In this document: positions 15,653 through 47,652 of the stretch, piece after piece
Layout of the letters: every line of letters begins with the position of its first letter
How positions within the stretch are numbered: position 1 is the first letter of the stretch
Origin: Bacteroides cellulosilyticus DSM 14838
GTDB lineage: Bacteria; Bacteroidota; Bacteroidia; Bacteroidales; Bacteroidaceae
NCBI RefSeq assembly: GCF_000158035.1
Contig: NZ_EQ973490.1
Coordinates: 1,657,626-1,721,625 of the forward strand
Length of the DNA: 64,000 nt
Reading direction: 5' to 3'
Program-made: the position numbers and the translations under genes
The notes under the pieces: generated by a model
The model's input: the letters and a program-made list of their open reading frames with translations, nothing else
Told to the model about the DNA's origin: nothing
Database searches by the model: none

Positions 15653-18600
15653 ATGGAACGACGCACCTTTCTTAAAATTTTGTCATCAGCAGGTATCGTT
15701 AGCTTGGTTAGTCCGACTTTTGCTATGGAAGTTTGTAAAAACAAGGTGTCTAAATCTTCTTCAGCTCTTCTCGAATCAGCTTTTCGTAATCCGCCTTTCT
15801 CTTCCGGAGTTTATACATGGTGGCATTGGATGAATGGTAATATAACTAAAGATGGTATAACCCGTGATCTTGAAGCCATGAAGGCAAATGGTATTGCGGG
15901 GTATCAATTGTTTGAAGCAGGAAGTGGCATCCCTATTGGTCCGGTAGAATCGCTTAGTGATGAATGGGTAGATCTTATTCTGCATACGCTCAAAGAATCA
16001 GAAAGGTTGGGTTTGGAGTTTGCAATGCACAACTGCCCCGGTTGGTCATCCAGTGGTGGTCCGTGGATCACTCCAGATAAAGCTATGCAAATAATAACGT
16101 GGAGCGAAACTAAAATAACGGGTGGAAAACAAGTCAGGATTCAGTTACCCACTCCCAAACATATGTTTGATTATTACATAGATACATATTGTTTGGCTAT
16201 TCCGGCAAATATGAAAGTAATACCTAGGTTGTCAATTCTTGAATTATCAAATAGGCTTGATAAGGATGGTGTTTTAACTTGGGATGTTCCTACTGGTGAG
16301 TGGCTGATTATGCGTTTTGGACAAACAGCCAAAGATCAGAAGAATAAGTCAGCCCCCTCTAAATCAACCGGATTAGATTGTGACAAATTCAGTACAGAAG
16401 CACTGGATTATCATTTGAATTGTATGTTTAAAAGGCTGATGCCTGCAATGGAGAAAATAGCCAAACATTCTAAGATCGGTTTGCTAATAGATAGTTATGA
16501 AACGGGTGACCAGGATTGGACTTCCGACATGCCTGCCTATTTTGAACAAAGTCATGGGTATGAACTGTATCCATTTTTACCCGTATTAGCCAATAAAATA
16601 GTTGAGAGCGAGGAAAGTACAAAGCGTTTCCTGTTTGACTTTCGTCGAGTTAGAGCTGATATGTTTGCTGAACGTTACTATGGTCATTTTCAAAAGCGAT
16701 GTAAAGAGAAGGGTATAATAACTTATACTGAGCCTTATGGAGGCAATATGATGGAAGAATTACAGGTGGCACAACAGCTTGACATTAATATGGGGGAATT
16801 CTGGTGTGGTCAGACTGTACTTTGGGCAAATTATAAGTATAATCGTACCGTCAAACAAGTAGCTTCAATAGCACATACGCTTGGTGGAAAGGTAGTTGGT
16901 GCCGAGGCTTTTACTTCTGAACCGGATGCGGATAAATGGTTGCAGTATCCATATGCTCTAAAGTCATTAGGTGATTATATGTTTACCCGAGGGCTTAGTA
17001 GAATTTATTTTCATAGATTTGCCCACCAACCACACCCTACTGCTGCTCCGGGAATGACGATGGGGGCGTGGGGGCTACACTTTGACCGTACCAATACATG
17101 GTGGAAACCGGGAAAAGCATGGATTGAGTATTTGAACCGTTGCCAGTACATTTTCCAGAGTTCAACTTTCTATGGTGATATTCTTTATCATAATGGTGAT
17201 GATAGTTTTGGTAGCACTATTGAACCGGAACAAACCCTACTGGCCCCTCCGGAAGGATATGATTATGATATGGTAAATACTGAAATGCTGGACAAAGCAC
17301 ATATCAAGGATGGAAAGATTCTTTTTCCCGCTACACGTTTTGATGGCTATAAGCTCTTAGTGTTGCTTAAATCGGAAACAATGTCATTACACACGTTGCG
17401 GATACTGGCCCGATTGGTAGGTGAGGGAATGGTATTGGTTGGGCAAAGGCCACTGCATACCTTAGGTTTGTGTGATGGAGAGAAAGAGAATGAGTTTGCT
17501 GCACTGGTGCAAAGAGTCTGGCAGCACCCGAACGTGCATGAAGGAAAAGATTTGCAAACCATTTTTAACCGGTTAGGTGTGTCTCCCGACTTTGTTTATC
17601 ATTCTGAAGCAGGAAATTCATCTGTTCATGCTATCCATTATCAACAAGAAGGAGCCGAGATATACTTTGTTGCAAATCGTAAGCGAGCGCATGAGAAAGG
17701 AACGGCTCATTTCCGGATAAAAGGTTATATTCCGGAGTTATGGGATCCTTATACAACTGAAATTCTACAGTGCCCGGTCTATCGCACTGATAACGAGGGC
17801 GTAGAAATACCTCTTAATCTAACTCCTGCAGGATCCATGTTTGTTGTTTTTCGTAAAGTTGAGAAACAACGGAAGTACACAGATGTGAAATACAATGGTG
17901 TTTCTTTGTTTCCGACTATTGGAAATGTAGTGAAACAGGATTCTTTGTCTGCAAATTTTAGTATTACTTGTTGGATAAAGCCTGAGGTGGATATAGCCAT
18001 GACGGAAGAACAGGAACTCGGTGATATGCGTGCCCGTTTTTTTGCTATTTATCCTTTGGAAGGAGAGCGGCGGCATGGAAAAGGACATAGTTCCCTTGGG
18101 TTGTCAGTAGGTCGGAATGGAGTCGTTGTCTATGAACGGACTATACATAATAAGGCTGTATACCGAAATCCCAGACCATTATCGGGATGGACCCATTTTG
18201 CTTTAGTTTATCAGGATAACACACCGCATCTTTGGATAAATGGAGTATATGCCGGAGCAGGAACAACTTCAGACACAATCGTGCATCTTGAAACATCTCA
18301 TTCGGATTTGTTGTGTAAAGCGGATGCTTATGAAGGAGGACTCTGCAATCTGTGTATCTATCCTTCCAGTATTGACAAAACAGAAATCACAAACCTTTAT
18401 CAAAAGGGGATACCTGCTCCGTTTCATCCAAGTGAGCAGGTACTTTCATGGTTACCCAGTCATCGGTTTGTTGCATGGCAGGCTGGTGTTTATGAGTTTA
18501 TTGCAGAGCATACAAGTATCCGTAAGCATGTTGATACTCTTCCTACATGTATTCCGTTAAAAGGCCCTTGGACTGTTCGGTTTCCTCAAAATATGGGAGC

Positions 18601-19156
18601 ATCTGAGGAAATAACTTTAGCCAGATTGCATTCATTACATTTAGAAGAGGATTTTGGGGTTCGTCATTTTTCGGGAACGATGACTTATCTCTATTCGTTA
18701 TCTATAAATAATATCTATTTGCAGGACGATATTTGTTTGCGCTTGGATCTAGGTCGAGTAGAAGTACTTGCTGAAGTGTTGGTGAATGGAAAACGTGCTA
18801 GTATTTGTTGGGCACCTCCTTATGCCATTGATATGCAGCAGCTATTGCACGAAGGAGATAATCTGATAGAAATTCGTGTAACAAATTTATGGGTTAACCG
18901 ATTGATTGGTGATGAGTATCTGCCTGAAGAGAATGTTTATAATTATCAGGATATTCCAAATAAATATTCTACATTGCGCAACGGTGGTATCAAGAAACTT
19001 CCTGAATGGTATCTACAGGGTAAACCAAAGCCTGCAGGAGGTAGAATTGCATTTACAACTTGGAAACATTATGATAAGACTTCACCTCTTGTTGAATCTG
19101 GTTTATTAGGACCAGTCACCTTAACAGTTGGGAAAATAGAGAGTCTGAATATATGA
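15653..19156 (+). CDS. GH106-like alpha-L-rhamnosidase with an inserted LamG-like domain
   Basis: This predicted exported glycosidase would release alpha-L-rhamnose. MERRTFLKILSSAGIVSLVSP resembles a twin-arginine type signal; an ATG at 15590 is also in frame, but 15653 starts the signal. GH106 hallmarks are GVYTWWHWMNGNITKDGITRDLEAMKANGI near the N-terminus, LEFAMHNCPGWSSSGGPWI, and TYTEPYGG-like and AEAFTSEPDADKW segments farther on. Around residues 745-900 a LamG/concanavalin-like fold is visible (FSITCWIKPE, GWTHFALVYQDNTPHLWINGV). The C-terminal portion (about 985-1150) is a galactose-binding-like sandwich. At 1167 aa it fits the family plus insert. Its leader matches that of susC. Confidence 0.82.
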   Translation: MERRTFLKILSSAGIVSLVSPTFAMEVCKNKVSKSSSALLESAFRNPPFSSGVYTWWHWMNGNITKDGITRDLEAMKANGIAGYQLFEAGSGIPIGPVESLSDEWVDLILHTLKESERLGLEFAMHNCPGWSSSGGPWITPDKAMQIITWSETKITGGKQVRIQLPTPKHMFDYYIDTYCLAIPANMKVIPRLSILELSNRLDKDGVLTWDVPTGEWLIMRFGQTAKDQKNKSAPSKSTGLDCDKFSTEALDYHLNCMFKRLMPAMEKIAKHSKIGLLIDSYETGDQDWTSDMPAYFEQSHGYELYPFLPVLANKIVESEESTKRFLFDFRRVRADMFAERYYGHFQKRCKEKGIITYTEPYGGNMMEELQVAQQLDINMGEFWCGQTVLWANYKYNRTVKQVASIAHTLGGKVVGAEAFTSEPDADKWLQYPYALKSLGDYMFTRGLSRIYFHRFAHQPHPTAAPGMTMGAWGLHFDRTNTWWKPGKAWIEYLNRCQYIFQSSTFYGDILYHNGDDSFGSTIEPEQTLLAPPEGYDYDMVNTEMLDKAHIKDGKILFPATRFDGYKLLVLLKSETMSLHTLRILARLVGEGMVLVGQRPLHTLGLCDGEKENEFAALVQRVWQHPNVHEGKDLQTIFNRLGVSPDFVYHSEAGNSSVHAIHYQQEGAEIYFVANRKRAHEKGTAHFRIKGYIPELWDPYTTEILQCPVYRTDNEGVEIPLNLTPAGSMFVVFRKVEKQRKYTDVKYNGVSLFPTIGNVVKQDSLSANFSITCWIKPEVDIAMTEEQELGDMRARFFAIYPLEGERRHGKGHSSLGLSVGRNGVVVYERTIHNKAVYRNPRPLSGWTHFALVYQDNTPHLWINGVYAGAGTTSDTIVHLETSHSDLLCKADAYEGGLCNLCIYPSSIDKTEITNLYQKGIPAPFHPSEQVLSWLPSHRFVAWQAGVYEFIAEHTSIRKHVDTLPTCIPLKGPWTVRFPQNMGASEEITLARLHSLHLEEDFGVRHFSGTMTYLYSLSINNIYLQDDICLRLDLGRVEVLAEVLVNGKRASICWAPPYAIDMQQLLHEGDNLIEIRVTNLWVNRLIGDEYLPEENVYNYQDIPNKYSTLRNGGIKKLPEWYLQGKPKPAGGRIAFTTWKHYDKTSPLVESGLLGPVTLTVGKIESLNI

Positions 19157-19178
19157 GGTGCTCACTGAATATAAATTT

Positions 19179-19218
19179 GAGGCAAGAATGAATATTATTT
19201 TCATTCCTGCCTTAAGTT
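19179..19218. terminator. Terminator-like hairpin between convergent GH106 and HTCS genes
   Basis: Arms 19181-19192 (GGCAAGAATGAA) and 19200-19211 (TTCATTCCTGCC) pair with one mismatch and a short loop, followed on the plus strand by TTAAGTTTTT. It could serve both converging transcripts. Confidence 0.6.
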
Positions 19219-19241: not shown

Positions 19242-22200
19242 TTAGTTGAGAGAATCGTCTTTATATTTATTGCTCTCTCTGTATTCCTTGGGAGTTTGAT
19301 TGTATCGTTTGCCAAACTCTTTATAGAAATGTGACCGATTTGTGAAAGCTGTCCGATACATGATTTCCTGTATAGTCAATGTTGTAGTTAATAGTAATTT
19401 GGCAGCATAATTTATTCTTTGTTCTTTGATGAAATCTTTAGGGGGGAGTTGATCCAGATTCTTAAACTTGCGATATAAATTTCTGCTGCTGGTTTGCATG
19501 GCTTCTGCAAGTTCTTCCGGACCAAATTCAGTGTTGTCCATATTTTCATTGATTAGTTCAACAGCAGTTTCCATGAATTTTTTGTCTTCCTGTTGTAACA
19601 ACTGTCCACCACTAAATTCAAAGGCACTTGCTGAAGAGTTGTAGTATTGCTTTAATTCTTCCTGCTTTTTTAATAGTTGTTTGATGATACTCCTAAGATA
19701 TTGAGTATTGAATGGTTTGGGGATGTAAGCGTCTGCTCCAGATTCTATACCCTCAATTTTTTCATCGGTTGTATTTTTTGCAGAGAGGATAATTAATGGA
19801 ATATGCATTGTATGTTTGTTGCTTTTGAGTTGTTTGATTAAGGTGATTCCATCTATTTTGGGCATCATAATGTCTGTAATGATAAGATCCGGTGTCTTTT
19901 GTTTTAATAAAACAAGCCCTTCTTCACCATTTTCTGCCGTTAAAATGGAATATTCATCGGATAGTATATCTTTTAGCATCCACAGTAACTCTTTGTTGTC
20001 ATCTATCATCAGAATGGTTGTTTCTGGTTGGTTGAATTCCTTTTCGTAATCACCTCTTTCAGCTGTTTCAATATTCGTATTGTTGCTTAGAGGTTCGGAT
20101 TTAGGAGTTTCATTCAATACATGTTCGGCTTCTTCTGTTACTTCAAGCTGTGGTAGGTTCACTATGAACTGAGCATATTGGTCTATTTCGCTTTTTACTT
20201 CAATAGTACCTTGCAGTAGTTCTACCATACTTTGACAAATGGCAAGTCCTAAACCATTTCTGGAAGAAAGTCCTTTAATGCTATTCTCCTGAATGTTATC
20301 AAGTACACTGTACCGGTTAAATATAAGTGGAATATTCTCTTTACAAATTCCTTTTCCTGTATTATAGACTTGAATATTTAGTTTATCTACCTCTATTTTT
20401 ATGGATATACGTATTGTTCCATTTTCGGGGCTATATTTAAATGCATTCGAAATAAGATTATTTAGAATCTTAGTAAATCCGCTATAATCACTCTTCCATA
20501 TAATATCTGGACTGATATTTGTTTCCAGATGGATTTGATTTTGTTCTGCCAACTCACCAAATGAATCTATAATGTCTTTTGCTAATTTGCTGATATTCAG
20601 TTCTTGTATATGGCATATTTGATTGCCGGTTTCCATGCGACGGAAGTCTATTACTTCTTGTATCAGGCTATTGAGACGCTCTGTATTTGATTTTATAATC
20701 TGGGCATATTTTTTAATGAAAACATCACTGTTCTCATGCTGCAGAATTCTTTCGCATGGACCATAAATCAGGGTAAGTGGTGTACAGAATTCATGTGTGA
20801 TGTTGGTAAAGAAACGTAGTTTACCTTCATACATTTCTTCCTTATATTTTTCATTTAACTTTTTGGACATGGCGGCTTTTCTTCGTTCGTATTTCCGCCG
20901 GATATAATGCCAAAATCCCAATCCTACCCCAATAATCAATAATACATATATTATCTGGGCTGTAATACTCTGATACCAAGGGGGAAGAATGATGATACGG
21001 ATACTTTTGATTAAATTGTCATTGCTATTTCCTCCATCATTGTATTTTACTTTCAATGTATAATCTCCGGGAGGGATATTTGTAAATTGCGCTTCATTAG
21101 AGCGTGTATCCATCCATACATTATTGAAATTTTCAAGTTTATAAGAATATCTGCAGTTCTCGCCATTAATAAAGTCTGTGGCTACAAAAGAGACTGCAAA
21201 GAAATTCTGATTATGGTTCAACACGATATTTTGAGAATTACTATCTTTTTTCTCAAACTCATGAATGTTATATTCCTTATTGAATATTCTTACTTTTGTA
21301 AAGTGAATATCAGGCACAAAGTTGTTTTTCTTTTTTTTCTCTTTTTTTATCCAGACTACGCCATTTACTCCTCCAAAAAAGTATCTGTTGTTTATTTTGT
21401 CTTGAAAATATGCATTATCACTAAATTCTGTTATATCTAAGCCCGTTCTATGATTAAAGTTCCTGAACGTATTCTTTTGGGAATCAAATAATATAATGCC
21501 GGTATTGCTGCTTAACCATAGATGTCCTTCTTTGTCTTCAATAATTCCGTGTATTGTATTATTGGGTAAACCTTCATTCTCATTAAAATTCTTATAGTCA
21601 TAATTACCATTAGATGAGATTTTCAGTTTGGTTAATCCATAACTTGTACCTAACCATATATCTTCATGTTGGTCTTGATATATGCATAATATATCACTCA
21701 TGGGGGCTATACCATTTCTATCAAAAGAAATGAAAGAATAATTTTCAGTGCGAGAATTTAATCTGATGACCCCATTACCACGCATTCCAATACAAATAAT
21801 GGAGTCATTTTCTGGATATATAGAATATATTTGATTGTTTTTCTGTTTATGAGGAACATCAAAATTGAATGCTTGAATCTTTTTAGCTTCAAGGCCTTGT
21901 TTCTGTTGTTGAATGTTTATTTTTAATAAAGTATTTCCTGCACCTACCCACAATAGTGAGTCGTTTGTTTCACACATGGAATGTACATGGGAGATATCTT
22001 GATTAGTATTGTTAGCTAATGAGTGAATTTTATTGTCTGAAAAAGAGTAGTAATTTAATCCAGGTCCATTTGAACCGATCCATAAAATTGGATATACATT
22101 ACTTGGTGCAAATGCAAAAACTTCATTATTCGTAAGTCCTTCTTGTGTTGTAAGGTGTATGACATTATCATTTGAATACTCTTTTGAAGTATCATAATGG

Positions 22201-23291
22201 TTGATCTTTATTATACCATTGTCTTTGGTTCCTAACCATAGAGTATTATATTTATCAGTGTAAACAGCGCGGATCGGCCTTTTCTTGCTGATCGGAAGTT
22301 CATTGAGCAATATATTAGTAAATGTATATTCGTCTTTTGTCCAGGCATATACCCCCTGCCCATCTGTACCAATCCAAATAATATCTTGTTGTTTATCTTT
22401 CCATAAAGAGAATATACCACAATTAATGTTGAACTTCTCTGCTTGGTAATTTTGTTCAGCCATAAGTCGTATAAGACCATTTGTCTCAAATCCGATAAGA
22501 ACATCGTTGTCGTCAAAAATAATGGCTCCAATTTTACCACTTTCCTGAATCAATTGCTTTAGCTTTCTGATAAAATGTAGTTTTCCTTTTTCTTTGTAAA
22601 ATATGTTTCCTTCAGAATCCACCATAATTATTTTCTCGTCACTGTAAAAGGCATATTTTATAAGGTGGGGATGTGTAAAGTCCGGATGTCTGACAATTTG
22701 AGGATTATTTGTTTTTTTCCCGGATATGGTATACCTTTCCATTATACCTTTATGATTAATCCATATCGTATCTTGAGAATCAACAATAAAACTTGATACA
22801 TTGTCTAATTCTTTCTCTTTATAGATAGGGAAGTTTATAAATTTATTGTCTAAGTTCGAATATAGAGATAATGTATTTGGTCTATTGAATACATATAAAT
22901 AGTCTTGATTGTCTTTGGCAATATATGAATTTTCACCAAATTCATTATAATATTCCTCTATTGCATTACTTTTTTGCGATAGTTTGTTTAATCCCCATTT
23001 AGTGCTAATCCATAGGTAGTTATCTGTTTCTATGATTTTTCTGATGACATTGCTTGAAAGGCTATTTTGATTATTGATATCTGGCTTATAGACATATATT
23101 TTTTGACTATCATACATGTTGAGTCCATCATAAGTACCAATCCATAGGAATCGTTTCTCATCTTGAAATAAGCAAGTTACGGAACTGTTTGATAGACCGT
23201 CACGATTACTAATTTGCCTAAGGTTATGTGAACTGATATTTTGTATAGAACAAAATAGTAGCAACAAAGATATTTGAATATAATATTTCAT
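19242..23291 (-). CDS. Hybrid two-component system regulator (HTCS) of PUL 1
   Basis: This one-protein sensor and transcription factor detects a glycan fragment in the periplasm and activates its PUL. Its 1349 aa hold a signal peptide (1-20), two-component-regulator propeller repeats (about 25-690, such as FLWIGTYDGLNMYD), a Y_Y_Y domain (about 695-765), a membrane helix (near 784), HisKA with TNITHEFCTPL (His about 832), HATPase (NLISNAFKYS, NTGKGI, NGLGLAIC), a receiver with intact DLIITDIMMPKIDG (Asp about 1139) and a C-terminal AraC HTH. An earlier ATG at 23363 overlaps the promoter, so MKYYIQISLLLLF at 23291 is preferred. It lies between the GH106 gene and susCD. Confidence 0.95.
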   Translation of the reverse strand: MKYYIQISLLLLFCSIQNISSHNLRQISNRDGLSNSSVTCLFQDEKRFLWIGTYDGLNMYDSQKIYVYKPDINNQNSLSSNVIRKIIETDNYLWISTKWGLNKLSQKSNAIEEYYNEFGENSYIAKDNQDYLYVFNRPNTLSLYSNLDNKFINFPIYKEKELDNVSSFIVDSQDTIWINHKGIMERYTISGKKTNNPQIVRHPDFTHPHLIKYAFYSDEKIIMVDSEGNIFYKEKGKLHFIRKLKQLIQESGKIGAIIFDDNDVLIGFETNGLIRLMAEQNYQAEKFNINCGIFSLWKDKQQDIIWIGTDGQGVYAWTKDEYTFTNILLNELPISKKRPIRAVYTDKYNTLWLGTKDNGIIKINHYDTSKEYSNDNVIHLTTQEGLTNNEVFAFAPSNVYPILWIGSNGPGLNYYSFSDNKIHSLANNTNQDISHVHSMCETNDSLLWVGAGNTLLKINIQQQKQGLEAKKIQAFNFDVPHKQKNNQIYSIYPENDSIICIGMRGNGVIRLNSRTENYSFISFDRNGIAPMSDILCIYQDQHEDIWLGTSYGLTKLKISSNGNYDYKNFNENEGLPNNTIHGIIEDKEGHLWLSSNTGIILFDSQKNTFRNFNHRTGLDITEFSDNAYFQDKINNRYFFGGVNGVVWIKKEKKKKNNFVPDIHFTKVRIFNKEYNIHEFEKKDSNSQNIVLNHNQNFFAVSFVATDFINGENCRYSYKLENFNNVWMDTRSNEAQFTNIPPGDYTLKVKYNDGGNSNDNLIKSIRIIILPPWYQSITAQIIYVLLIIGVGLGFWHYIRRKYERRKAAMSKKLNEKYKEEMYEGKLRFFTNITHEFCTPLTLIYGPCERILQHENSDVFIKKYAQIIKSNTERLNSLIQEVIDFRRMETGNQICHIQELNISKLAKDIIDSFGELAEQNQIHLETNISPDIIWKSDYSGFTKILNNLISNAFKYSPENGTIRISIKIEVDKLNIQVYNTGKGICKENIPLIFNRYSVLDNIQENSIKGLSSRNGLGLAICQSMVELLQGTIEVKSEIDQYAQFIVNLPQLEVTEEAEHVLNETPKSEPLSNNTNIETAERGDYEKEFNQPETTILMIDDNKELLWMLKDILSDEYSILTAENGEEGLVLLKQKTPDLIITDIMMPKIDGITLIKQLKSNKHTMHIPLIILSAKNTTDEKIEGIESGADAYIPKPFNTQYLRSIIKQLLKKQEELKQYYNSSASAFEFSGGQLLQQEDKKFMETAVELINENMDNTEFGPEELAEAMQTSSRNLYRKFKNLDQLPPKDFIKEQRINYAAKLLLTTTLTIQEIMYRTAFTNRSHFYKEFGKRYNQTPKEYRESNKYKDDSLN

Positions 23292-23332
23292 GAGTAGTAG
23301 TCTTCTTGGCATTAATAACTTTAACTGGTCAA

Positions 23333-23364
23333 CAAAGATAGTGCTCTGATCGAGTTTTCCCAAA
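23333..23364 (-). promoter_or_regulatory. Promoter of the PUL 1 HTCS gene
   Basis: The minus strand has TTTG (23364-23361), 20 bp, then TATCTTTG (23340-23333), a good match to the Bacteroides -33/-7 pair. The leader would be about 35 nt. Confidence 0.65.
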
Positions 23365-23591: not shown

Positions 23592-23825
23592 GTGTATTAG
23601 TTTTTTTTATGGGTATTGAGAAAAGATACTATATTATTAATTTCTAAAAATAACGATGAATATGGAAAAACACTCTTTAATTTTTGGAGGTATTGCTAAA
23701 AAAATATCATTAGAATACTTTTTGATAATTTGAGTTTTGGTGAATTATGTATACTGATACTTTAATGGTATTTATCTTTTTAATAAATGCTTTTTAAAAA
23801 CAGAACCAATTTAAAATATATTAAT

Positions 23826-26900: not shown

Positions 26901-26920
26901 ACTAATAAAATAAGAATAAA

Positions 26921-37597: not shown

Positions 37598-40191
37598 ATA
37601 CAAAAGTAAAGACAAGAACTTGGATAGCCTTATTGAATCTGCTCTTTCTGTTTACAGCAATCAATGCGCAGCCTGTTCGTCAGCACTTGCATGAAGGATG
37701 GAATTTTCGGCAGGCGAGGGGTACTAACTGGTATGAAGCCACTGTTCCTGGAACAGTTCATACAGACTTGATGGATAACAAACTGATAGATGATCCTTTT
37801 TACAGGCTCAATGAGCGCGGTGTGCAGTGGGTGGATAAAGAAGACTGGATTTACCGGACGACGTTTGATGTAACCCCTGAGTTGCTGGCAAAGAAGAATA
37901 TTGTGCTGCATTTTGAGGGATTGGATACTTATGCTGATGTAACATTGAACGGAAAGAAGATTCTTTCTGCTGATAATATGTTTTGTGAATGGCAGGTGGA
38001 TGTCCGTTCTCTCTTAAAAGAGCATGGTAATGAATTGCAGGTTTATTTGCATTCTCCTATTAAGATAGCTATGCCGAAATGGGAAGCTGTTCCTTTCCAG
38101 TATCGCAGTTCGAATGACCAGTCTGAGAATGGAGGTTTGCTCAACCGCAAGATCGGAGTGTTTGTTCGTAAAGCGGGTTATCATTTTGGTTGGGACTGGG
38201 GACCTCGTTTGGTTACTTCGGGTATCTGGAGGACCGTTAGTCTGGAAGCATGGGATGAGGCTCGTATAAATGATGTTTTTTATAACCAGCAGTCGGTGAC
38301 AGCCCAACGGGCCATAGTGAATGTCACGGTGGAAGTATTGGCAGATAAGGAGACAGAAGCAAAGGTAGCTGTGATTAATCGTACGGATAAGCGTACCGAG
38401 TGCCGGAAATTGATTCGTTTGAATAAAGGTTTGAATAAAATTCCGGTATCTTTTACCATGAAGAAGCCACGGTTATGGTGGACTAATGGTTTGGGCGAAC
38501 CTTTCTTATACGACTTTGCAGCAACACTGGAACTGAATGGTAAGCAAGTAGATGTAACAGAGAAGAAACTGGGTATCCGCTCATTGAAAGTGGTAACGAC
38601 TCCTGACGAATATGGTGAAAGCTTTTATTTTGAACTAAATGGAAAACCCTTGTTTGCCAAAGGTGCGAATTATATTCCTTGTGATAACTTTCTGACTCGT
38701 GTTACCGACTCCATTTATGAAAAAACGATCCGGGATGCAGTCAGTGCAAATATGAATATGCTACGAGTGTGGGGTGGTGGAGTTTATGAGAAAGATATCT
38801 TTTATGATTTGTGTGATAAATACGGCATTTTAATCTGGCAGGACTTTATGTTTGCGTGCAGTGTATTTCCTGCTGAAGGCGAATTGCTGGAAAACATTCG
38901 CAGGGAAGCCATTGATAATGTACGACGCTTGCGTAACCATAGTTGTATAGCCCTTTGGTGTGGGAATAATGAATGTTTGGATGCTTGGTTCAACTGGAAT
39001 TGGAAAAAGACATATGACAAACAGAATCCTGCTTATTCGGATATTATATGGAAACAGTTCAAGAATCAGTATTTTGTGACGTTGCCGGCTGTGGTAGAAG
39101 AATTCCATCCGGGTGCTTGTTACCGTAAATCATCTCCTTATTCTGATGACAAAGGGACGCGCAATCATACGGTGGGCGATATGCACTATTGGGCAGTTTG
39201 GCAAGGGCTGAAACCCCTTTCCGAATTTAATCATGAGCGAAGCCGTTTTTTCAGTGAGTATGGTTTTCAGTCATTCCCGGAATTCGAGTCGATCAAACGG
39301 TATGCACCTTTATCAGAGGATTGGAATCTGACTTCGGAGGTAATGATGTCGCATCAGCGAGGGGGAACAGCGGCTAATAAGCGTATCAATGATTTCCTTT
39401 TGTCGGAATATCGTCAGCCGAAAGATTTCCGTTCGTTTACCTATATGAGCCAGCTTTTGCAGGCTGATGCTATGAAAATGGCTATGGAGGCACATCGGAG
39501 GGATATGCCCTATTGTATGGGATCGTTGGTATGGCAGCATAATGACTGCTGGCCGGTGGCATCCTGGTCTAGTCGCGACTATTACGGACGTTGGAAGGCG
39601 CAGCATTATTTTACGGTAAAGTCTTTCGCTGATTTATTGGTATCGCCAATAGAAAAGGAAAACACGTTGCAGATATATATGGTATCAGACAGGCTAAAGA
39701 GTACTTCTGGTAAATTAACAGTCTGTGTGCTCAGATTGGATGGTAACGGAGTGGTGAAAGAATTCAAGAAACAGATAACTGTTCCGGCTAATACAAGTAC
39801 AGTTATATGGAAGGAAGCTGTGGATGGGTTATTGAATGGAGAGAAAAAAGAAGACGTCGTCGTACACGTTCTTTATGAGGATAAAACAGGAAAAAAGTAT
39901 ACTAATAATTATTTTTTGGCGAAGCAAAAAGATATGCGTTATGCGGCAGCTCGGATTAATAAAGACTTTGTACCGACTGAAGGAGGGTATGAGGTAACTC
40001 TGTCTTGTGATGTGTTTGCAAGAGGCGTTTTCTTGTCACTCCAAGGGGATATTGACAATTTCATATCCGACAATTATATGGATATTTTGCCTGGTGAAAC
40101 GGTTACGGTTAAAGTGACTACTGAACTACCTTCGTTGCAGTTTGCCGAAAGGCTACAGGTCGTTTCTTTCTCGGATGCAGTGAAACAATAG
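37594..40191 (+). CDS. GH2 beta-mannosidase
   Basis: This 865-aa predicted exo-beta-mannosidase has a signal (WIALLNLLFLFTAINAQ), the jelly-roll with LHEGWNFRQARGTNWYEATVPGTVH and FEGLDTYADVTLNG, and NMLRVWGGGVYEKDIFYDLCDKYGILIWQDFMFAC in the barrel. The acid/base Glu is in LWCGNNE (about 458) and the nucleophile in FFSEYGFQSFPE (about 555). SLVWQHNDCWPVASWSS is another mannosidase signature. Length and order match characterised Bacteroides beta-mannosidases. Its ATG lies in the stop of the previous gene (ATGA). Confidence 0.87.
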   Translation: MNTKVKTRTWIALLNLLFLFTAINAQPVRQHLHEGWNFRQARGTNWYEATVPGTVHTDLMDNKLIDDPFYRLNERGVQWVDKEDWIYRTTFDVTPELLAKKNIVLHFEGLDTYADVTLNGKKILSADNMFCEWQVDVRSLLKEHGNELQVYLHSPIKIAMPKWEAVPFQYRSSNDQSENGGLLNRKIGVFVRKAGYHFGWDWGPRLVTSGIWRTVSLEAWDEARINDVFYNQQSVTAQRAIVNVTVEVLADKETEAKVAVINRTDKRTECRKLIRLNKGLNKIPVSFTMKKPRLWWTNGLGEPFLYDFAATLELNGKQVDVTEKKLGIRSLKVVTTPDEYGESFYFELNGKPLFAKGANYIPCDNFLTRVTDSIYEKTIRDAVSANMNMLRVWGGGVYEKDIFYDLCDKYGILIWQDFMFACSVFPAEGELLENIRREAIDNVRRLRNHSCIALWCGNNECLDAWFNWNWKKTYDKQNPAYSDIIWKQFKNQYFVTLPAVVEEFHPGACYRKSSPYSDDKGTRNHTVGDMHYWAVWQGLKPLSEFNHERSRFFSEYGFQSFPEFESIKRYAPLSEDWNLTSEVMMSHQRGGTAANKRINDFLLSEYRQPKDFRSFTYMSQLLQADAMKMAMEAHRRDMPYCMGSLVWQHNDCWPVASWSSRDYYGRWKAQHYFTVKSFADLLVSPIEKENTLQIYMVSDRLKSTSGKLTVCVLRLDGNGVVKEFKKQITVPANTSTVIWKEAVDGLLNGEKKEDVVVHVLYEDKTGKKYTNNYFLAKQKDMRYAAARINKDFVPTEGGYEVTLSCDVFARGVFLSLQGDIDNFISDNYMDILPGETVTVKVTTELPSLQFAERLQVVSFSDAVKQ

Positions 40192-40213: not shown

Positions 40214-41404
40214 ATGAAAAAGAGTACATTATTGTTTGTTACTATTCTAATTAGTTTTTTTCCCTTCGGTGACTTATTCGCCAAGGGTAAGGTAAAAGTT
40301 GATAAAGCGTTAGAGCATGCTGCTCGTCAGTATCTCTATATGAGGAGCGAGTTGCAAGGAAGTAACCAGTTTCCTAAAACGTATGACAAACATATGCAAC
40401 GCCTGAAAACCAGCAACTCAGAATGGTGGTGCAGCGGCTTTTATCCCGGAACTTTGTTCTATTTGTACGAGGATACAGGAGACAAGGAGCTATATGCTGA
40501 AGGAGTGCGTATGTTGAAGCTGCTGGAACCGGAACAATACAACGTGAATACGCATGATGTCGGTTTTATGATGTATTGCAGTTATGGCAATGCAAACCGC
40601 ATTGCTCCGAAACCTGAGTATAAAGATATTATGGTGAACAGCGCCCGTTCGTTGATTTCCCGTTTCAGCCCGGTGGTAGGCTGCATTAAATCCCATAATC
40701 GCAAACCGGATGATTATGTTGTTATCATTGATAATATGATGAATCTGGAATTGCTTTTCTGGGCTACTCAGGCCACAGGAGACAGCACATTCTATGATAT
40801 TGCTGTGAAACATGCCGATACAACTTTGAAGAATCATTTCCGGGCAGACAATAGTCTTTATCATGGACTGAATTATAACCCGGAAACCGGTGAAATAAAG
40901 CACTACCAAGGTGGACAGGGCTTTTCCGAAAAGTCAGCTTGGGCTCGTGGACAAGCCTGGGGATTATATGGCTATACACTGATGTACCGTTTTACGAAAG
41001 AGCGGAAATACCTTGAGCAAGCCATAAAGATAGCAGAATTTACGCTGAATCATCCTAATATGCCGAAAGACCTGATTCCTTACTGGGACTATAATGCTCC
41101 CGGTATACCGGATGCTTTGCGTGATGCTTCTGCAGCAGCTATCAACTGTTCGGGATTATTGGAACTATCTCAGTATGTATCCGAAGAACGGGCTAAGAAA
41201 TATTATAAGGCAGCCGAGAAAATGCTCCAGACATTATCCTCACCGGCATATACGGCAGAGGAAGGTACTAACGGAGGATTTATTCTGAAACATTCGGTAG
41301 GTAATATTCCTTCCGGTACAGAAGTAGATATGCCTTTGACCTATGCTGATTATTACTATGTAGAGGCGTTGTGCCGATACAAATCCTTAAATGATAAACC
41401 CTAA
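40214..41404 (+). CDS. GH88 unsaturated glucuronyl hydrolase
   Basis: This 396-aa exported enzyme would remove the unsaturated 4,5-uronyl residue that PL8 lyases leave. The signal is MKKSTLLFVTILISFFPFGDLFA. GH88 motifs are SEWWCSGFYPGTLFYLYEDTGD, THDVGFMMYCSYGNA (catalytic-region Asp about 114), VIIDNMMNLELLFWA (Asp about 171), HGLNYNPETGEIKHYQGGQG and RGQAWGLYGYTLMYR. All are intact. Its presence next to three lyases strongly supports a lyase-then-hydrolase pathway. The next gene starts within a few bases of its stop. Confidence 0.93.
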   Translation: MKKSTLLFVTILISFFPFGDLFAKGKVKVDKALEHAARQYLYMRSELQGSNQFPKTYDKHMQRLKTSNSEWWCSGFYPGTLFYLYEDTGDKELYAEGVRMLKLLEPEQYNVNTHDVGFMMYCSYGNANRIAPKPEYKDIMVNSARSLISRFSPVVGCIKSHNRKPDDYVVIIDNMMNLELLFWATQATGDSTFYDIAVKHADTTLKNHFRADNSLYHGLNYNPETGEIKHYQGGQGFSEKSAWARGQAWGLYGYTLMYRFTKERKYLEQAIKIAEFTLNHPNMPKDLIPYWDYNAPGIPDALRDASAAAINCSGLLELSQYVSEERAKKYYKAAEKMLQTLSSPAYTAEEGTNGGFILKHSVGNIPSGTEVDMPLTYADYYYVEALCRYKSLNDKP

Positions 41405-41417
41405 AATTAATGATGCC

Positions 41418-42881
41418 ATGATGAATAGATGTAATATAGTCTTGTTTGCAATATCTTTGCTATTTTCCTCTTCCCTTATAGCCGGAACAATTGATGTGAC
41501 TAAGCGTGGAGCTAAAGGAGATGGGGTAACGGATAATACAATCATTATACAGAAAGCCGTAGATGAATGTTCGAAGAAAGGAGGCGGAACCGTTTTGATA
41601 CCATCCGGATCTTATTTGATACGTCCCATTGAACTGAAATCAAATGTGAACCTTCATCTGGATTTTGGCACTTTATTGTTGGGAAGTACACGTTTGTCGG
41701 ATTATGATAATGCCTTTCCCTTTAAGGATGGTAGTATGAATCAGTCTTCCGGACTTTTGTTTGCACGTGGACAAAAGAATATTTCGATTACCGGATTCGG
41801 AACGATTGACGGACAAGGTGGAAATAAAACTTTTCAATTTGGCAATGATGCGGACGGTGGACCGAAACGTCCTAAGATAATTTATTTTGTAGAGTGCAAG
41901 GGCATTGTTGTGACCGATGTCACTCTCCGTAATTCTGCCTATTGGGTGCAGCATTATGAAAAATGTGAAGATGTCACTATCCGTGGTTTAAAGGTATTCA
42001 GCCATTGTAATTATAATAATGACGGGCTTGATATTGATGCCAAGAATGCGACTATATCTGATTGCTACATTGATGTGGAAGATGACGCCATTTGTTTCAA
42101 GAGTGACCATCCGGAATTTTGCGAGAACATAACGGTTACGAATTGTGTCACAGCAAGCAATTGTAATGCAATCAAATTCGGTACAGCTTCTCATGGAGGA
42201 TACCGGAATATTGCGGTTTCCAATTGTGTCGTTCGTCGGGCAGCGGAAGATAATATTCGTCATTGGAGTAAACAGCTTGAACATATTTCGGCCGATGTTA
42301 CCGTTATTTCGGGTGTTGCCATAGAAATGGTTGATGGAGGCATTATTGATGGCATCACCGTTTCCAATATTTCTATGCGCGATGTCCAGACTCCCATATT
42401 CATCCGTTTGGGAGACAGACACCGCACTTACCGGAAAGAGGGTGGTGGATTGAAGAATATAAATATCAGCAACATTGTAGCAACCGCAGAAAGCCTGATA
42501 GCCTGTTCAATAACTGGTGTGGAGACAAGCTATGTAGAAAATGTTTCGATCAATAACGTGCAAATCAGCTATCCGGGGGGCGGAACCTCGGACATGGTTA
42601 GTAAACCTGTTCCGGAAATGACTAAAAGCTATCCTGAGAATCGAATGTTTGGTAATACATTACCGGCCGCCGGTTTCTATGTACGTCATGCCAGAAATGT
42701 GAGATTTAATAATGTACGTTTTGATGCGATGAAGCCTGATGTACGTCCGTTATTCTTTTTGGATGATGTTGTCGGGGCAGAACTGAATCAATGTAAAGGT
42801 GCCGCTCCTGCTGATGCGAAATTTATTCGTACAGTGCATAGCTCAGGGATAGTAGCTGATGGTAAGTACCTGGATAAATAG
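41418..42881 (+). CDS. GH28-like parallel beta-helix glycosidase
   Basis: This exported protein of about 487 aa belongs to the pectinase-fold GH28 group. ATG 41418 (or 41421) begins the signal MMNRCNIVLFAISLLFSSSLIAG; an ATG at 41391 would overlap the GH88 gene. The fold signature is VTKRGAKGDGVTDNTIIIQKAVDECSKKGGG. Catalytic-site candidates are the Asp residues in NNDGLDID (about 200) and EDDAICFKSD (about 221). The GHG and RIK motifs of classical polygalacturonases are not visible, so the linkage cut may differ; a galacturonidase or other uronidase or rhamnosidase role is possible. Confidence 0.8.
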   Translation: MMNRCNIVLFAISLLFSSSLIAGTIDVTKRGAKGDGVTDNTIIIQKAVDECSKKGGGTVLIPSGSYLIRPIELKSNVNLHLDFGTLLLGSTRLSDYDNAFPFKDGSMNQSSGLLFARGQKNISITGFGTIDGQGGNKTFQFGNDADGGPKRPKIIYFVECKGIVVTDVTLRNSAYWVQHYEKCEDVTIRGLKVFSHCNYNNDGLDIDAKNATISDCYIDVEDDAICFKSDHPEFCENITVTNCVTASNCNAIKFGTASHGGYRNIAVSNCVVRRAAEDNIRHWSKQLEHISADVTVISGVAIEMVDGGIIDGITVSNISMRDVQTPIFIRLGDRHRTYRKEGGGLKNINISNIVATAESLIACSITGVETSYVENVSINNVQISYPGGGTSDMVSKPVPEMTKSYPENRMFGNTLPAAGFYVRHARNVRFNNVRFDAMKPDVRPLFFLDDVVGAELNQCKGAAPADAKFIRTVHSSGIVADGKYLDK

Positions 42882-42884
42882 GAG
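42880..42884 (+). promoter_or_regulatory. Shine-Dalgarno AGGAG deciding the PL8-GH78 start
   Basis: AGGAG ends 7 nt before ATG 42892 and only 1 nt before ATG 42886, so 42892 is favoured. Such strong Shine-Dalgarno sites are uncommon in Bacteroides. Confidence 0.5.
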
Positions 42885-42891
42885 TATGTTT

Positions 42892-45800
42892 ATGAAATGC
42901 TTGAAACTAATATTCTGTTTGCTTTATTTTTGTTGCTCTTTGGCTGAGGCTAAAGAGGTGCAAGTAGATGCGCAAAAAGAAGTGGACGAAATGACCGGAC
43001 GACTGGTCGCTTCCTATTTGGAAGCGAAAGTAGATGAGGACATAATAGCGGGTTATGCGAGTGCGTTACGTTCGGATGGAAGTTTTCCGGACCTGGATTA
43101 TGTAACTGTGCATGAAGGTTCGTCTTATCCGGCCGGCTCTCATTTGAAACGCTTGAAATTAATGGCTATTGCATATCGGAAACCTGGAAATAAGTATTAT
43201 AATTCAGGAAGACTGTTGAAACAAATAGTTGCAGGTATCGATTATTGGTATAGAGTACGTCCTAAATCCGGAAACTGGTGGTTCGGTGATATTGGTGCTC
43301 CCCAAGACTACATGGTTCCGTTGATTCTGCTGAAAGGTAAAATTAGTGATAAGAAGTTATTGCATTATTCTTCTTATCTACAAGATTTGACTGGGAATAA
43401 AGGTCATAAAGGCAAAAACCGTACATGGGTATCTGCCGTTACCATTCATAAAGGATGTATTGAAAATAATATTGAGCTGATACGAATCGGAATCAAGTCC
43501 ATAGCTTCTACTATTAAGATTGTTTCGGAACAAGGTGACGAAGGTATTAAGGTGGATGGTAGTTTCCATCAGCATCGTCCGCAATTATATTCCGGCGGGT
43601 ATGGTTTATCGTATGTAGATGATATTGCATATTATTTACAATTGGTGAAAGGAACTGCCTTTGAGCCTTATTTTACACAAGAGAAAAAAGATATATTTAT
43701 CAATCTTCTGATGGGTGGTCATCGGTTGTTGGGCTATCGGGAAACGTTTGATTTTGGTGCAATCGGTCGTAATATATCACGTCCCGAAGGACTTAGCAAT
43801 ATTTCTCCTGTCACGCTGGAATACATGGAGCAGAATGATTCTGATCGTGCTGCTGATTACTCGGCTTGGAAGAAACATCTTTCCGGTGCTCCTTTTCCTG
43901 CTCCCGGTAATAAGTATTTCTGGAAATCGGACATTATGGTCCAGCATGGTACCGGCTATTATCTCTCTGCTAAGGTGATTTCTACACGGACTAATGGAAC
44001 CGAAATGCTTAATAATGAGAACCTCAAAGGTTATAACCTGCCGCTTGGTGCTACGAATATCCTTACTTCCGGGAAAGAATATGAAGGTATCTTCCCTGTA
44101 TGGAACTGGAATAAAATACCGGGGACTACGGCTGTTCAACATCAGGACTCTACTCGTCTTGAAGGATATCTGTTCGGAAAAAATCGGTTTGGAGGTGGGG
44201 TAAGTAACGGCAAGAATGGGGTCATTGCTTATGAGCATTGCTATAAGGGAGTAAAAGCCAGGAAGTCTTACTTTTTTATGAATGATGTACTTTTGTGCTT
44301 AGGGACAGATATTGCATCAGATGCTCCCGAGGAAGTAGTTACAACTGTTAATCAGTGCCTTTTTAAAGGCGAAATGGTAGTTGGCGAAGAGGAAGGAACT
44401 ACATCTGTTTACAGAGAAAATGTATCTGTAAAGAATCCGGCTTGGGTATATCATGATAAAGTTGGTTATTTATTTCCTTCAGGAGGAGATGTAATTGTTA
44501 GCAATCCGAAACAAACCGGAGCTTGGAAGGATATTAATATCAGTGGGAGTGGAAAAAAGATTTCTGCTGACATCTTTAATCTCTGGATTAGTCATGGTGT
44601 AAAGGCTAAGGAAGGGAAATATGCATATATGGTTGTTCCTGACAAATCTTTAGAGGAGTTCCGGACATTTACGGCTACCCAGAATTATAAGATTATTCAA
44701 AATAGTTCTGTGGTGCAGGCTGTTAAGTTGAATCAGCAGTATGCTATTGTTTTTTATCATCCGGGAACAATTGATTTAGGGGAGGGACTTACACTGGCTA
44801 CTGATAAACAAGTGATTGTCTATCTTGAGCAGAAGGGAACAGGTTACGATATCTGGGTTGCAGATCCGCTTTATAGTCAGAGGGAGGTTTGTCTGGCTCT
44901 TAATGGTAGAGAAGTGCAGATCGCTTTTCCGGAGGGTGAACTGACTGGCAGTACGGCTTTCACGAATATTGCCACTCTCCAACCTTTTGATTTGCAATGT
45001 GAATATCTTAGTAATCCTTTAGGTGTTGACATACCGCAACCTCGTTTGAGTTGGAAAATGGGAGCTACTACCTCGGCACGCGGGCGGAAGCAGACTGCTT
45101 ATCAGATTCTTGTAGCAAGCTCCCGGGATTTACTTGATGCAGACCGTGGAGATCTTTGGGATAGCGGTCGTGTTAATTCTGCTGAGTCGGTGAATATTGT
45201 TTATGGAGGAGTACCTTTGTCTGCCGGGCAAAGATGTTTCTGGAAAGTCCGTTTCTCCGATGAGCATAATCGTTGGTCGGCATGGAGTAATCCTGCAAAT
45301 TGGCGTATGGGGCTGTTTGCTGCTGATTGGGCGGCACAATGGATAGGCAGTGCAGAGATGGAATCTCAGAGTGTGGGAGGTAAGAAGGTTAATAATGTAA
45401 TGGCAGATCCCTGGTTCCGTAAAACATTTAATATGTCGGATATTCCACAGGATGCTGTTATTTATGTAGCTTCCATAGGTTATCATGAACTGTATGTCAA
45501 TGGGCGGAAAGTGGGGGATGCTGTCCTTTCACCTTCGGTTACGGATCATAAATCACGTGCCCGTTACATGACATATGATATCAAAGGCTATCTGAAAACA
45601 GGTACTAATGTTATAGCTTTGTGGCTGGGTACTTCCTGGGCTGTTTTTCCGGCCTATCAGCAGAAGAATAGACCGGCTATTCCGATGGCATTGGTTCAGG
45701 CTGAGATTGCATTATCTTCCGGAAAGAAATTACGAATTGTTTCGGATAATACCTGGAAGACCCATGCAAGTCCCAATACCTTGTTAGGTTACTGGGAGGC

Positions 45801-47652
45801 ACATCACTTTGAAGGAGAATGTTATGATGCAGCTTTGGAAAAAGATGGGTGGAATACTCCGGATTTTGATGATTCCGGTTGGGCTATGGCAAAGGTTTAT
45901 TCTACTGACGTTATAGTATCATCTGACCGTACAGAACCTAATCGGTTACTTGGTGAAATTAAACCACTTTCTGTTCAGGAAGTTAGTCCCGGAGTCTATA
46001 GAGTTGATATGGGAATCAATTATGCCGGTTGGTTTGAGATGCAGCTCCAAGGCCAACCCGGTGATTCAATTGTATTCCAATTTTCTGAAAGGGAAAAGGA
46101 TGCTTGCAGCTATGGTATACATAGCATTTATAAAGTTGGCTCCAAACGGAAAGGAGTCTTTTGTAACCGTTTTAATTATATGACCGGACGCTGGGTACAA
46201 ATTACCGGCCTTCGGTATAAACCGGAATTAGACCAGATACGTGGTTGGATGATTCGTCCGGATTATCGCCGGAGCGGTGGATTTGAATGTGATCTTCCTT
46301 TGTTGAATGACATTTATCGTACTACCTTGTGGACGTTTGAAAATCTCAGTCTGGGTAACTATGTGGTCGATTGTCCTCATCGTGAACGTTGTGGATACGG
46401 GGGAGATGCATTGGCCACTACGCGCACAGCTTTGGGAAACTATCAATTGGGGGCTTTCTATAGCAAATGGATGGAAGATTGGCGTGATGTGCAAGATCCC
46501 GAAGGGAATGTTCCCTATACCGCTCCTACCCGCATTGGCGGGGGGGGACCATCCTGGAGTGGTTTCTGCATTACCTTGCCTTGGGAGCTTTATCGTCAGT
46601 ATGGAGATGTACGTATTCTTTCGGAAAGTTTTCCCACTATTCAGCGCTGGCTTTCTTTTGTAGAAACGAAGTCGCAGGATGACATGCTGGTACGTTGGGG
46701 AGGTAAATGGAGTTTCCTGGGTGACTGGCTTTGGCCGGATGCATGGTCGGAAAGGTCGGCTATGGAGAAACAGGGAAAAGCACTTGGAGATACTCGGGAA
46801 ACTTTATTCTTTAATAATTGTCACTGGATTTACAGTCTTGAAACTGCTGCACAGATTGCCGATGTGTTGGGAAATAGAGCAGCAGCTTCCGCTTATCGGA
46901 ACCGGGCATCCAAAGTGCGTAAGGCGGTGCATGCTACTTTCTTCAATTCGAACGATAATAGCTACGTGAATGGCTATCCTTCTTATCTTGCTATTGCACT
47001 GATGGTTGATTTACCCCCGAAGCATTTGCAGGCAAAAGTCTGGAAACGTCTTGAGCAGGAAGTGCTGGTAAAGCGTAAAGGGCATTTCTGGGGAGGTATT
47101 ACTGCCGGTTCGTTCCTGTTGCATACTTTATTAGATAATCATCGTAATGATTTGATTTTTGAGATGGCTACTAAAGAAGATTTTCCCGGCTGGGGAGATA
47201 TGTTGAAGCATGGCAACGGTACGTTCTTTGAAGATTGGCAATGTCGTGGTTCGGGTTTGCATAGTTCCTATTTGTATATCGGTAGTTGGTTTATTGAGGC
47301 TTTAGGAGGTATCCGCCGTCCGGAGGCTGGTTATAAGGAGTTTTCCATTGAGCCTTGGATTACAAAAGGCGGTCCAAAGCAAGTACGTTCATACTACAAC
47401 TCGCTGTATGGGAAAATAGTCTCTGACTGGACGTTGGAAGCCGGTGTGCTGAAAATGGAAATCACCATACCGGCTAATACTACTGCTGTCCTGAAATTAT
47501 CCGGCATTCATCCTGCTACTTTAAAGGAAGGAGAAACTTCATGGAAAGAGGCGGAAGGAGTCAGCCTGTATTCACAAAAAAGGAATGCTCTATCACTTGC
47601 ATTGCAGTCAGGTACTTATAGATTCTCGGTGGTGATGGATGAAGGCAGGTAA
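42892..47652 (+). CDS. Bifunctional PL8 lyase - GH78 alpha-L-rhamnosidase fusion
   Basis: This 1586-aa protein joins two enzymes. After the signal MKCLKLIFCLLYFCCSLAEA, residues about 25-690 are a complete PL8 lyase: NWWFGDIGAPQDYMVPLILLK, QHRPQLYSGGYG (His about 226, Tyr about 236), GRNISRP (about 293) and TEMLNNENLKG (about 370). From about 696 (FDLQCEYLSNPLG) comes a full GH78 rhamnosidase with N-terminal fibronectin-like and sandwich domains, the barrel motif VDCPHRERCGYGGDA (about 1160-1173) with the general acid region, WSFLGDWLWPDAW and a C-terminal beta domain. A single chain would let lyase cutting and rhamnose removal act together on neighbouring sugars. A G8 tract lies at 46540-46547. 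Confidence 0.88.
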   Translation: MKCLKLIFCLLYFCCSLAEAKEVQVDAQKEVDEMTGRLVASYLEAKVDEDIIAGYASALRSDGSFPDLDYVTVHEGSSYPAGSHLKRLKLMAIAYRKPGNKYYNSGRLLKQIVAGIDYWYRVRPKSGNWWFGDIGAPQDYMVPLILLKGKISDKKLLHYSSYLQDLTGNKGHKGKNRTWVSAVTIHKGCIENNIELIRIGIKSIASTIKIVSEQGDEGIKVDGSFHQHRPQLYSGGYGLSYVDDIAYYLQLVKGTAFEPYFTQEKKDIFINLLMGGHRLLGYRETFDFGAIGRNISRPEGLSNISPVTLEYMEQNDSDRAADYSAWKKHLSGAPFPAPGNKYFWKSDIMVQHGTGYYLSAKVISTRTNGTEMLNNENLKGYNLPLGATNILTSGKEYEGIFPVWNWNKIPGTTAVQHQDSTRLEGYLFGKNRFGGGVSNGKNGVIAYEHCYKGVKARKSYFFMNDVLLCLGTDIASDAPEEVVTTVNQCLFKGEMVVGEEEGTTSVYRENVSVKNPAWVYHDKVGYLFPSGGDVIVSNPKQTGAWKDINISGSGKKISADIFNLWISHGVKAKEGKYAYMVVPDKSLEEFRTFTATQNYKIIQNSSVVQAVKLNQQYAIVFYHPGTIDLGEGLTLATDKQVIVYLEQKGTGYDIWVADPLYSQREVCLALNGREVQIAFPEGELTGSTAFTNIATLQPFDLQCEYLSNPLGVDIPQPRLSWKMGATTSARGRKQTAYQILVASSRDLLDADRGDLWDSGRVNSAESVNIVYGGVPLSAGQRCFWKVRFSDEHNRWSAWSNPANWRMGLFAADWAAQWIGSAEMESQSVGGKKVNNVMADPWFRKTFNMSDIPQDAVIYVASIGYHELYVNGRKVGDAVLSPSVTDHKSRARYMTYDIKGYLKTGTNVIALWLGTSWAVFPAYQQKNRPAIPMALVQAEIALSSGKKLRIVSDNTWKTHASPNTLLGYWEAHHFEGECYDAALEKDGWNTPDFDDSGWAMAKVYSTDVIVSSDRTEPNRLLGEIKPLSVQEVSPGVYRVDMGINYAGWFEMQLQGQPGDSIVFQFSEREKDACSYGIHSIYKVGSKRKGVFCNRFNYMTGRWVQITGLRYKPELDQIRGWMIRPDYRRSGGFECDLPLLNDIYRTTLWTFENLSLGNYVVDCPHRERCGYGGDALATTRTALGNYQLGAFYSKWMEDWRDVQDPEGNVPYTAPTRIGGGGPSWSGFCITLPWELYRQYGDVRILSESFPTIQRWLSFVETKSQDDMLVRWGGKWSFLGDWLWPDAWSERSAMEKQGKALGDTRETLFFNNCHWIYSLETAAQIADVLGNRAAASAYRNRASKVRKAVHATFFNSNDNSYVNGYPSYLAIALMVDLPPKHLQAKVWKRLEQEVLVKRKGHFWGGITAGSFLLHTLLDNHRNDLIFEMATKEDFPGWGDMLKHGNGTFFEDWQCRGSGLHSSYLYIGSWFIEALGGIRRPEAGYKEFSIEPWITKGGPKQVRSYYNSLYGKIVSDWTLEAGVLKMEITIPANTTAVLKLSGIHPATLKEGETSWKEAEGVSLYSQKRNALSLALQSGTYRFSVVMDEGR

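Follow-up and report, generated by a model that had tools for sequence, protein, structure and literature searches.

A PUL built around a separate clade of PL8 lyases

We analyzed a 64,000-nucleotide stretch of the Bacteroides cellulosilyticus DSM 14838 genome (here called the window) and found that it contains a PUL of known architecture whose three PL8 proteins fall in a clade of their own. This clade, with its conserved partners, is uncharacterized in the literature searched. Judged from gene content, the PUL probably targets an unsulfated acidic heteroglycan containing 4-substituted GlcA, GalA, likely beta-mannose, and often rhamnose; a glycosaminoglycan or xanthan is an unlikely target. 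More tentatively, we propose that the clade is a distinct branch with a putative new specificity, acting not on glycosaminoglycan, xanthan, or polymannuronate but on a heteroglycan of GlcA, GalA, beta-mannose, and often rhamnose whose breakdown is undescribed, and that two domain fusions found among these loci are shortcuts of one pathway. The observations drawn from sequence are the family content, the gene run, the PL8 catalytic residues, the separate clade, and the recurring partners.

PL8 genes in gut genomes are easily taken for degraders of cartilage sugars or hyaluronan. If the clade acts on a different polymer, annotation of this kind misjudges diet and the use of host glycans, and the lyase would be a new tool for cutting a polymer for which none exists today. 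Given the sharp boundary of the clade, three proteins suffice to test the question directly.

Organization of the locus

Pfam searches of the open reading frames (ORFs) in the window confirmed a SusC/SusD-type PUL, with SusC adjacent to SusD and CAZymes co-located in a gene run with a hybrid sensor. The genes are given in order, by window position and strand:

15590..19156, +, GH106 alpha-L-rhamnosidase family protein (Pfam Glyco_hydro_106, 590 bits); the probable start is an internal ATG at 15653
19242..23363, -, hybrid two-component sensor/regulator (Pfam Reg_prop, Y_Y_Y, HisKA, HATPase, receiver, and AraC-type HTH)
23787..26900, +, SusC-like TonB-dependent transporter (Pfam)
26921..28531, +, SusD-like glycan-binding lipoprotein (Pfam)
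28723..31386, +, PL8a, a PL8 lyase that has an F5/8-type domain at its N terminus and a lipobox with an acidic stretch after it
31402..32808, +, GH79-type beta-glucuronidase (224 bits to the solved GH79 beta-glucuronidase 5g0m)
32805..34886, +, PL8b lyase with a signal-like N terminus, predicted to be periplasmic (Pfam, tree)
34898..37597, +, GH2a, a GH2 of the exo-glucosaminidase/mannosidase branch (Pfam, solved-structure matches, alignment)
37594..40191, +, GH2b, beta-mannosidase (717 bits to 2je8)
40214..41404, +, GH88 unsaturated glucuronyl hydrolase (Pfam, 46.8 bits; 3wiw, 329 bits; 1vd5, 170 bits)
41391..42881, +, GH28; the nearest curated model is rhamnogalacturonidase BT4146, below its cut-off
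42859..47652, +, PL8c-GH78 fusion, with PL8 at residues 1 to about 700 and alpha-L-rhamnosidase at about 710-1597 (Pfam)
47769..49545, +, LytTR response regulator plus histidine kinase, directly downstream; PUL membership uncertain

The ten genes from SusC to PL8c-GH78 form a co-directional run with intergenic gaps of -23 to +22 bases, save for 191 bases after SusD. This tight run, together with the recurrence of much of the set in other species and genera, argues that the grouping is not due to chance. The original prediction named three PL8 lyases alongside GH78, GH106, GH79, GH88, GH28, and two GH2 enzymes. All were found by Pfam or structure match, except that the third PL8 and the GH78 are a single protein of 1597 residues. 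Sulfatases were noted as missing, and indeed none of the 19 ORFs scanned (15590 to 61298) matched a sulfatase family in Pfam. Further downstream, DUF6268 and DUF4890 proteins (49679-51600) lie between this PUL and a separate second one (51755-63999), which comprises a hybrid sensor, GH97, SusC, SusD, and the start of an uncharacterized lipoprotein-like ORF cut by the window end.

The GH28, GH78, GH106, GH79, and GH2 families each include several specificities. The closest solved chain to the GH106 protein is 6q2f (442 bits), the GH79 protein scores just under the Pfam cut-off (79C, 26.9 bits versus 27), and GH88 resembles 3wiw and solved unsaturated glucuronyl hydrolases. Between the two GH2 proteins, sequence comparison makes a predicted beta-mannosidase clear only for GH2b. 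Its match to beta-mannosidase 2je8 is near full length, and the alignment covers both the WCGNNE motif and the nucleophile region. The closest match to GH2a is the exo-beta-glucosaminidase CsxA (241 bits), but at the position of the CsxA acid/base Asp (presumably D469) GH2a has the Glu of an SNE motif. An alignment of four rows, one of them a Verrucomicrobiia protein, shows no variation at this Glu, and we therefore rejected the name exo-beta-glucosaminidase for GH2a. Predicted "glucuronidases" and "mannosidases" thus correspond to GH79 and GH2b, with one GH79 only and a GH2a that is not clearly a beta-mannosidase. GH2a is also found in loci where no PL8 was seen nearby. A second locus of the same genome (G000:C62, about 826000-853000; L061-L063) carries a 78% identical GH2a paralogue, and its B. 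oleiciplenus counterpart (L050, L051) holds two GH88/GH105, GH130, GH115, GH31, an FAD oxidoreductase, and a sulfatase.

The PL8 proteins retain catalytic residues of chondroitinase AC

Lyase_8_N, Lyase_8, and Lyase_8_C each score above the Pfam cut-off in PL8a, PL8b, and PL8c (Lyase_8, 241-257 bits), and the three proteins share 44-50% identity. Among solved structures, chondroitinase AC 1cb8 is closest to PL8a (270 bits), followed by xanthan lyase (130 bits). We compared the three with chondroitinase AC at N175, H225, Y234, R288, R292, E371, N374, and W427 (numbering of that enzyme). In our alignment, equivalents of the first seven, among them the catalytic Asn, His, Tyr, Arg, and Glu, are retained in all three PL8s, and tryptophans 126/127 are also conserved. 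The W427 position is occupied by E, R, and E in PL8a, PL8b, and PL8c, respectively. Scores against the chondroitinase-AC equivalog NF043001 were 346.5, 376.1, and 377.4 bits versus a cut-off of 1000. An AlphaFold model of PL8b built from 8 sequences had low confidence (mean pLDDT, 69; pTM, 0.50).

A lipobox followed by an acidic stretch is the pattern of Bacteroides surface lipoproteins, and PL8a, which has both, is predicted to be one. The remaining enzymes have just a hydrophobic signal-like segment.

The PL8s belong to a narrowly distributed clade

In a maximum-likelihood tree of 58 PL8 rows, all three window PL8s fall in one 14-row clade (two rows identical) from 8 genomes, with support of 100/100 and a stem of 0.93; the deep order of this tree is weak and the program warned of long branches. 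No row was removed as short, and long rows were trimmed to the PL8 region. Chondroitinase AC 1cb8, xanthan lyase 1j0m, Arthrobacter chondroitinase AC 1rwa, and 41 other Bacteroidales rows all lie apart from the clade, so the PL8s of the window do not belong to the chondroitinase or xanthan lyase branches known so far. The 41 rows include the two other PL8s of the same genome; its two other PL8 loci (L094, L095) have GH2 and GH88 or GH97 neighbors and PL8s outside the clade.

A model of the clade scored 14 proteins from 8 genomes at 924-1194 bits among 158 genomes of the genus; the next best protein reached 478. With two candidates scored per genome, clade members were found in just 2 of 393 genomes of the order, and within the family a close GH78 (67-68%) and a close PL8 (at least 40%) were confined to the same 3 of 301 genomes. 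Altogether, 12 genomes carry a clade PL8, 8 placed by the tree and 4 by score (G745, G708, G707, and G819); B. fluxus PL8a was likewise placed by score only.

GH28 and GH88/GH105 are the constant partners of the clade

We compared the 15 kb around PL8 in the 12 clade genomes (window included) with 38 stretches containing other PL8s, which remained from 40 after L113 (Coprobacter) was moved to the clade set and L112 was dropped as a duplicate. GH28 was present in 12/12 clade genomes versus 1/38 comparison stretches and GH88/GH105 in 12/12 versus 7/38, some of the 38 being shorter than 20 kb and the clade genomes often having more sequence examined. Other partners were less regular: GH78 (5/12 versus 1/38), GH2a (5/12 versus 1/38), GH2b (5/12 versus 0/38), GH106 (2/12 versus 0/38), and GH79 (2/12 versus 0/38). 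Within the same distance, neither GH130/GH26 (1/12 versus 0/38) nor the lack of sulfatases (0/12 versus 9/38; P = 0.09) differed significantly. Because the genomes are related and the sequence examined is unequal, Fisher P values from this comparison are too small.

The four Bacteroides genomes first found by PL8 score alone show the same core. GH88 and GH28 lie beside the clade PL8 in all four (in G745, on two contigs), with GH2b in three and GH2a in two. These are also the four of eight searched clade-PL8 genomes from which the clade GH78 is absent, which indicates that rhamnose removal is frequent rather than fixed. Counting loci more than 15 kb away, some of them on other contigs, 10 of the 12 genomes have beta-mannoside enzymes, either GH2b or GH130 with GH26; the stretches around the clade PL8 of G819 and of the Parabacteroides MAG showed none. 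GH28 and GH88/GH105 are thus the constant partners of the clade, rhamnosidases are optional, and beta-mannoside enzymes recur.

These counts bear on the composition of the polymer foreseen in the original prediction. Uronic acid is supported, and so is beta-mannose, by GH2b here and by GH130/GH26 in sister loci. A rhamnose-rich character was not supported as the defining trait: the PL8/GH28/GH88 core persists in four Bacteroides genomes that lack the clade GH78, and GH106 orthologues occur in just 2 of 12 related genomes. The gene content does not discriminate among the polymers named as examples, an exopolysaccharide, a plant gum, and glucuronomannan. GH28, which had been listed correctly, turned out to be the most constant partner, a role that it had not been given.

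Related loci rearrange the same set

A scan with the GH78 part, applying two peptide patterns to the contigs of 84,980 species, each represented by a single genome, found at least 11 loci, a lower bound given that two patterns were used. Identity of the GH78 was 95% in B. oleiciplenus, 80% in B. fluxus, 74% in B. salyersiae and a Parabacteroides MAG, 73% in Coprobacter secundus, 62-70% in four Bacteroidaceae or Dysgonomonas MAGs, 59% in a Verrucomicrobiia MAG, and 51% in a Sumerlaeota MAG. Seven of these 11 genomes also have a clade PL8; none was found in those of B. salyersiae, Dysgonomonas, Sumerlaeota, and Verrucomicrobiia. The PL8c-GH78 fusion is retained in B. oleiciplenus, B. fluxus, and SI.A95, and GH78 is a separate gene in the Parabacteroides MAG, B. 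salyersiae, Coprobacter, and others. In the Parabacteroides MAG, GH79 is broken into two frames (L139:7445-8887).

In the B. oleiciplenus locus, shared operon proteins are 93-97% identical to those of the window, with SusC at 97%, and the sensor is 74% identical; genes downstream of the PUL are 80-88% identical. Across related loci, orthologues of the hybrid sensor are 54-74% identical. B. fluxus has the set at three sites. At the first, SusC/D is accompanied by PL8a, GH106, and a second GH78; the next has the fusion together with a sensor, GH88, and GH28; and the last has GH2a/GH2b, a sensor, another SusC/D, and another GH28. This arrangement supports GH106 and PL8a as parts of the system in that species.

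GH106 orthologues (68-69%), found in B. fluxus and SI.A95, are on a contig with a clade PL8, as the next gene in B. fluxus and about 5 kb away in SI.A95; none was found in B. oleiciplenus at an E value of 1e-100. PL8a was not found in B. oleiciplenus or in SI.A95, where the clade members are of PL8b and PL8c type only, suggesting that a surface-lyase step is not general. SI.A95 has GH106 without a detected PL8a. These absences from B. oleiciplenus and SI.A95 count against GH106 and PL8a as parts of the system.

Coprobacter encodes a GH88/GH105-F5/8-PL8 chain (L059:1835-6766) and a second such fusion (L113:7519-11370). In SI.A95, B. salyersiae, Coprobacter, and two MAGs, the neighbors of GH78 include GH130 together with either GH26 or a cellobiose-2-epimerase-like gene. 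The PL8 of the Verrucomicrobiia MAG (L134/L135) is genuine but more distant, at 119 bits against the model of the clade, and has a PATR repeat; within about 15 kb there are also two GH78 genes, a GH28 broken into two frames, and a gene resembling GH2a. A weak GH79-like match in this MAG lacks Pfam support. No SusC/D was found within the 35 kb examined. This cluster is a partly parallel set in another phylum.

Proposed pathway and alternative substrates

We infer localization, order of steps, linkages, and regulation as follows. PL8a would cleave the polymer at the cell surface by beta-elimination at 4-substituted GlcA, quite possibly at a Man-beta-1,4-GlcA linkage, and SusC/SusD would import the fragments. 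In the periplasm, PL8b and PL8c would cleave further. GH88 would then take off unsaturated GlcA, GH79 saturated terminal GlcA, GH78 and GH106 alpha-rhamnose, GH28 GalA, and GH2b, perhaps with GH2a, beta-mannose. Arrival of a breakdown product would turn on the operon through the hybrid sensor. The two fusions, PL8-GH78 in the window and GH88/GH105-F5/8-PL8 in Coprobacter, tie steps of this pathway together.

A rhamnogalacturonan-type plant gum or mucilage, with an RG-I-like backbone bearing GlcA, is a less probable substrate. The GH28 and GH106 would then act as in the RG-I locus of B. thetaiotaomicron, and the PL8s would clear GlcA branches. The nearest models to GH28 and GH106 are indeed BT4146 (292 bits) and BT4145 (209 bits), but both scores are far under the equivalog cut-offs of 500 and 1300. 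GH28 beside the clade PL8 in every genome fits a gum of this kind, as does the replacement of GH88 by a GH105-type gene in Coprobacter and two MAGs, where the label of GH105 versus GH88 is based on similarity to one MAG protein and its closest solved structures. The GH105 of MAG L047, however, is closer to 5noa (242 bits) and the ulvan enzyme 4ce7 (147 bits) than to YteR (64 bits), which points to unsaturated GlcA, possibly next to rhamnose. Further, Pfam identified no pectin-type lyase family in the PUL, and plain RG-I has no place for a beta-mannosidase.

A rhamnose-containing polymer of bacterial origin, either an exopolysaccharide or a capsule resembling xanthan or gellan, is an unlikely substrate. 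PL8 includes xanthan lyases that remove mannose from GlcA, as described in the available text of PMC10881899; GH88, beta-mannosidase, and rhamnosidase are compatible with such repeats, and part of the gene set recurs in the Verrucomicrobiia MAG. The clade nevertheless lies apart from xanthan lyase 1j0m, and the PUL has neither an endo-xanthanase nor the GH38/GH92 alpha-mannosidases that the same portions of PMC10881899 name in gut xanthan loci. We set aside the xanthan reading on these grounds; GH28, too, would be left unexplained by an exopolysaccharide.

It is rather improbable that the locus is a composite, with enzymes for two polymers (for example, a GlcA polymer and a mannan or pectin fragment) in one operon. 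In favor of this reading, B. fluxus, SI.A95, and Coprobacter have the components scattered over two or three loci that involve more than one SusC/D lineage, and GH78 and GH106 are variably present. Against this, clade PL8, GH28, and GH88/GH105 are near one another in all 12 genomes (on two contigs in G745), PL8 is fused to GH78 here and to a GH88/GH105 domain elsewhere, and the window holds a single gene run.

To our knowledge, no glycosaminoglycan is a substrate of rhamnosidase, GH28, or mannosidase. A variant hyaluronan/chondroitin PUL is very improbable and was set aside, given scores of 346-377 bits versus the 1000-bit chondroitinase-AC cut-off, the separate clade, and the lack of sulfatases in the stretches of the 12 genomes, even though 1cb8 is the closest solved PL8 to PL8a and GH88 belongs to the chondroitin PUL in the portions available of PMC9067506.

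Comparison with known systems

The original prediction knew of no described locus with this exact set, and we likewise found none joining PL8, GH28, GH79, and rhamnosidases in the available texts of the literature searched. Terms for these families were unmatched in the main text of the McNulty B. cellulosilyticus paper (PMC3747994), and the accessible parts of PMC7785962 and PMC13260240 name the families in genome inventories only.

Several described loci share part of the set. The CE15-encoding PULs of B. intestinalis and Alistipes shahii resemble ours in having PL8, GH88, and GH2 and an uncertain target but are set apart by description, as they carry CE15 and GH3; in the portions available, that paper names rhamnosidase and GH28 for other PULs only (PMC10807430). 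Similarly, the R.UCG13 xanthan locus has PL8 and GH88, but the xanthan loci also have GH5, GH38, and GH94, plus GH92 and GH3 in B. intestinalis, and the passages available name no rhamnosidase or GH28 for them (PMC10881899). The B. thetaiotaomicron chondroitin sulfate PUL BT3324-BT3350 is like the window PUL in its SusC/D, hybrid sensor, GH88, and PL8s, of which it has two that are not in our 58-row tree by name. It differs in having its own sulfatases and other lyase families, and the excerpts available do not name rhamnosidase, GH28, GH79, or mannosidase for it (PMC9067506).

The RG-I enzymes BT4145 and BT4146 of B. thetaiotaomicron are relatives of the window GH106 and GH28 by NCBIfam models, with scores under the cut-offs and, unlike in RG-I breakdown, no accompanying pectin-type lyase. 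Finally, the window PL8s share with chondroitinase AC 1cb8 the PL8 family domains and the catalytic residues, but differ from it in their separate clade, in the E/R/E at the W427 position, and in scores far below the equivalog cut-off.
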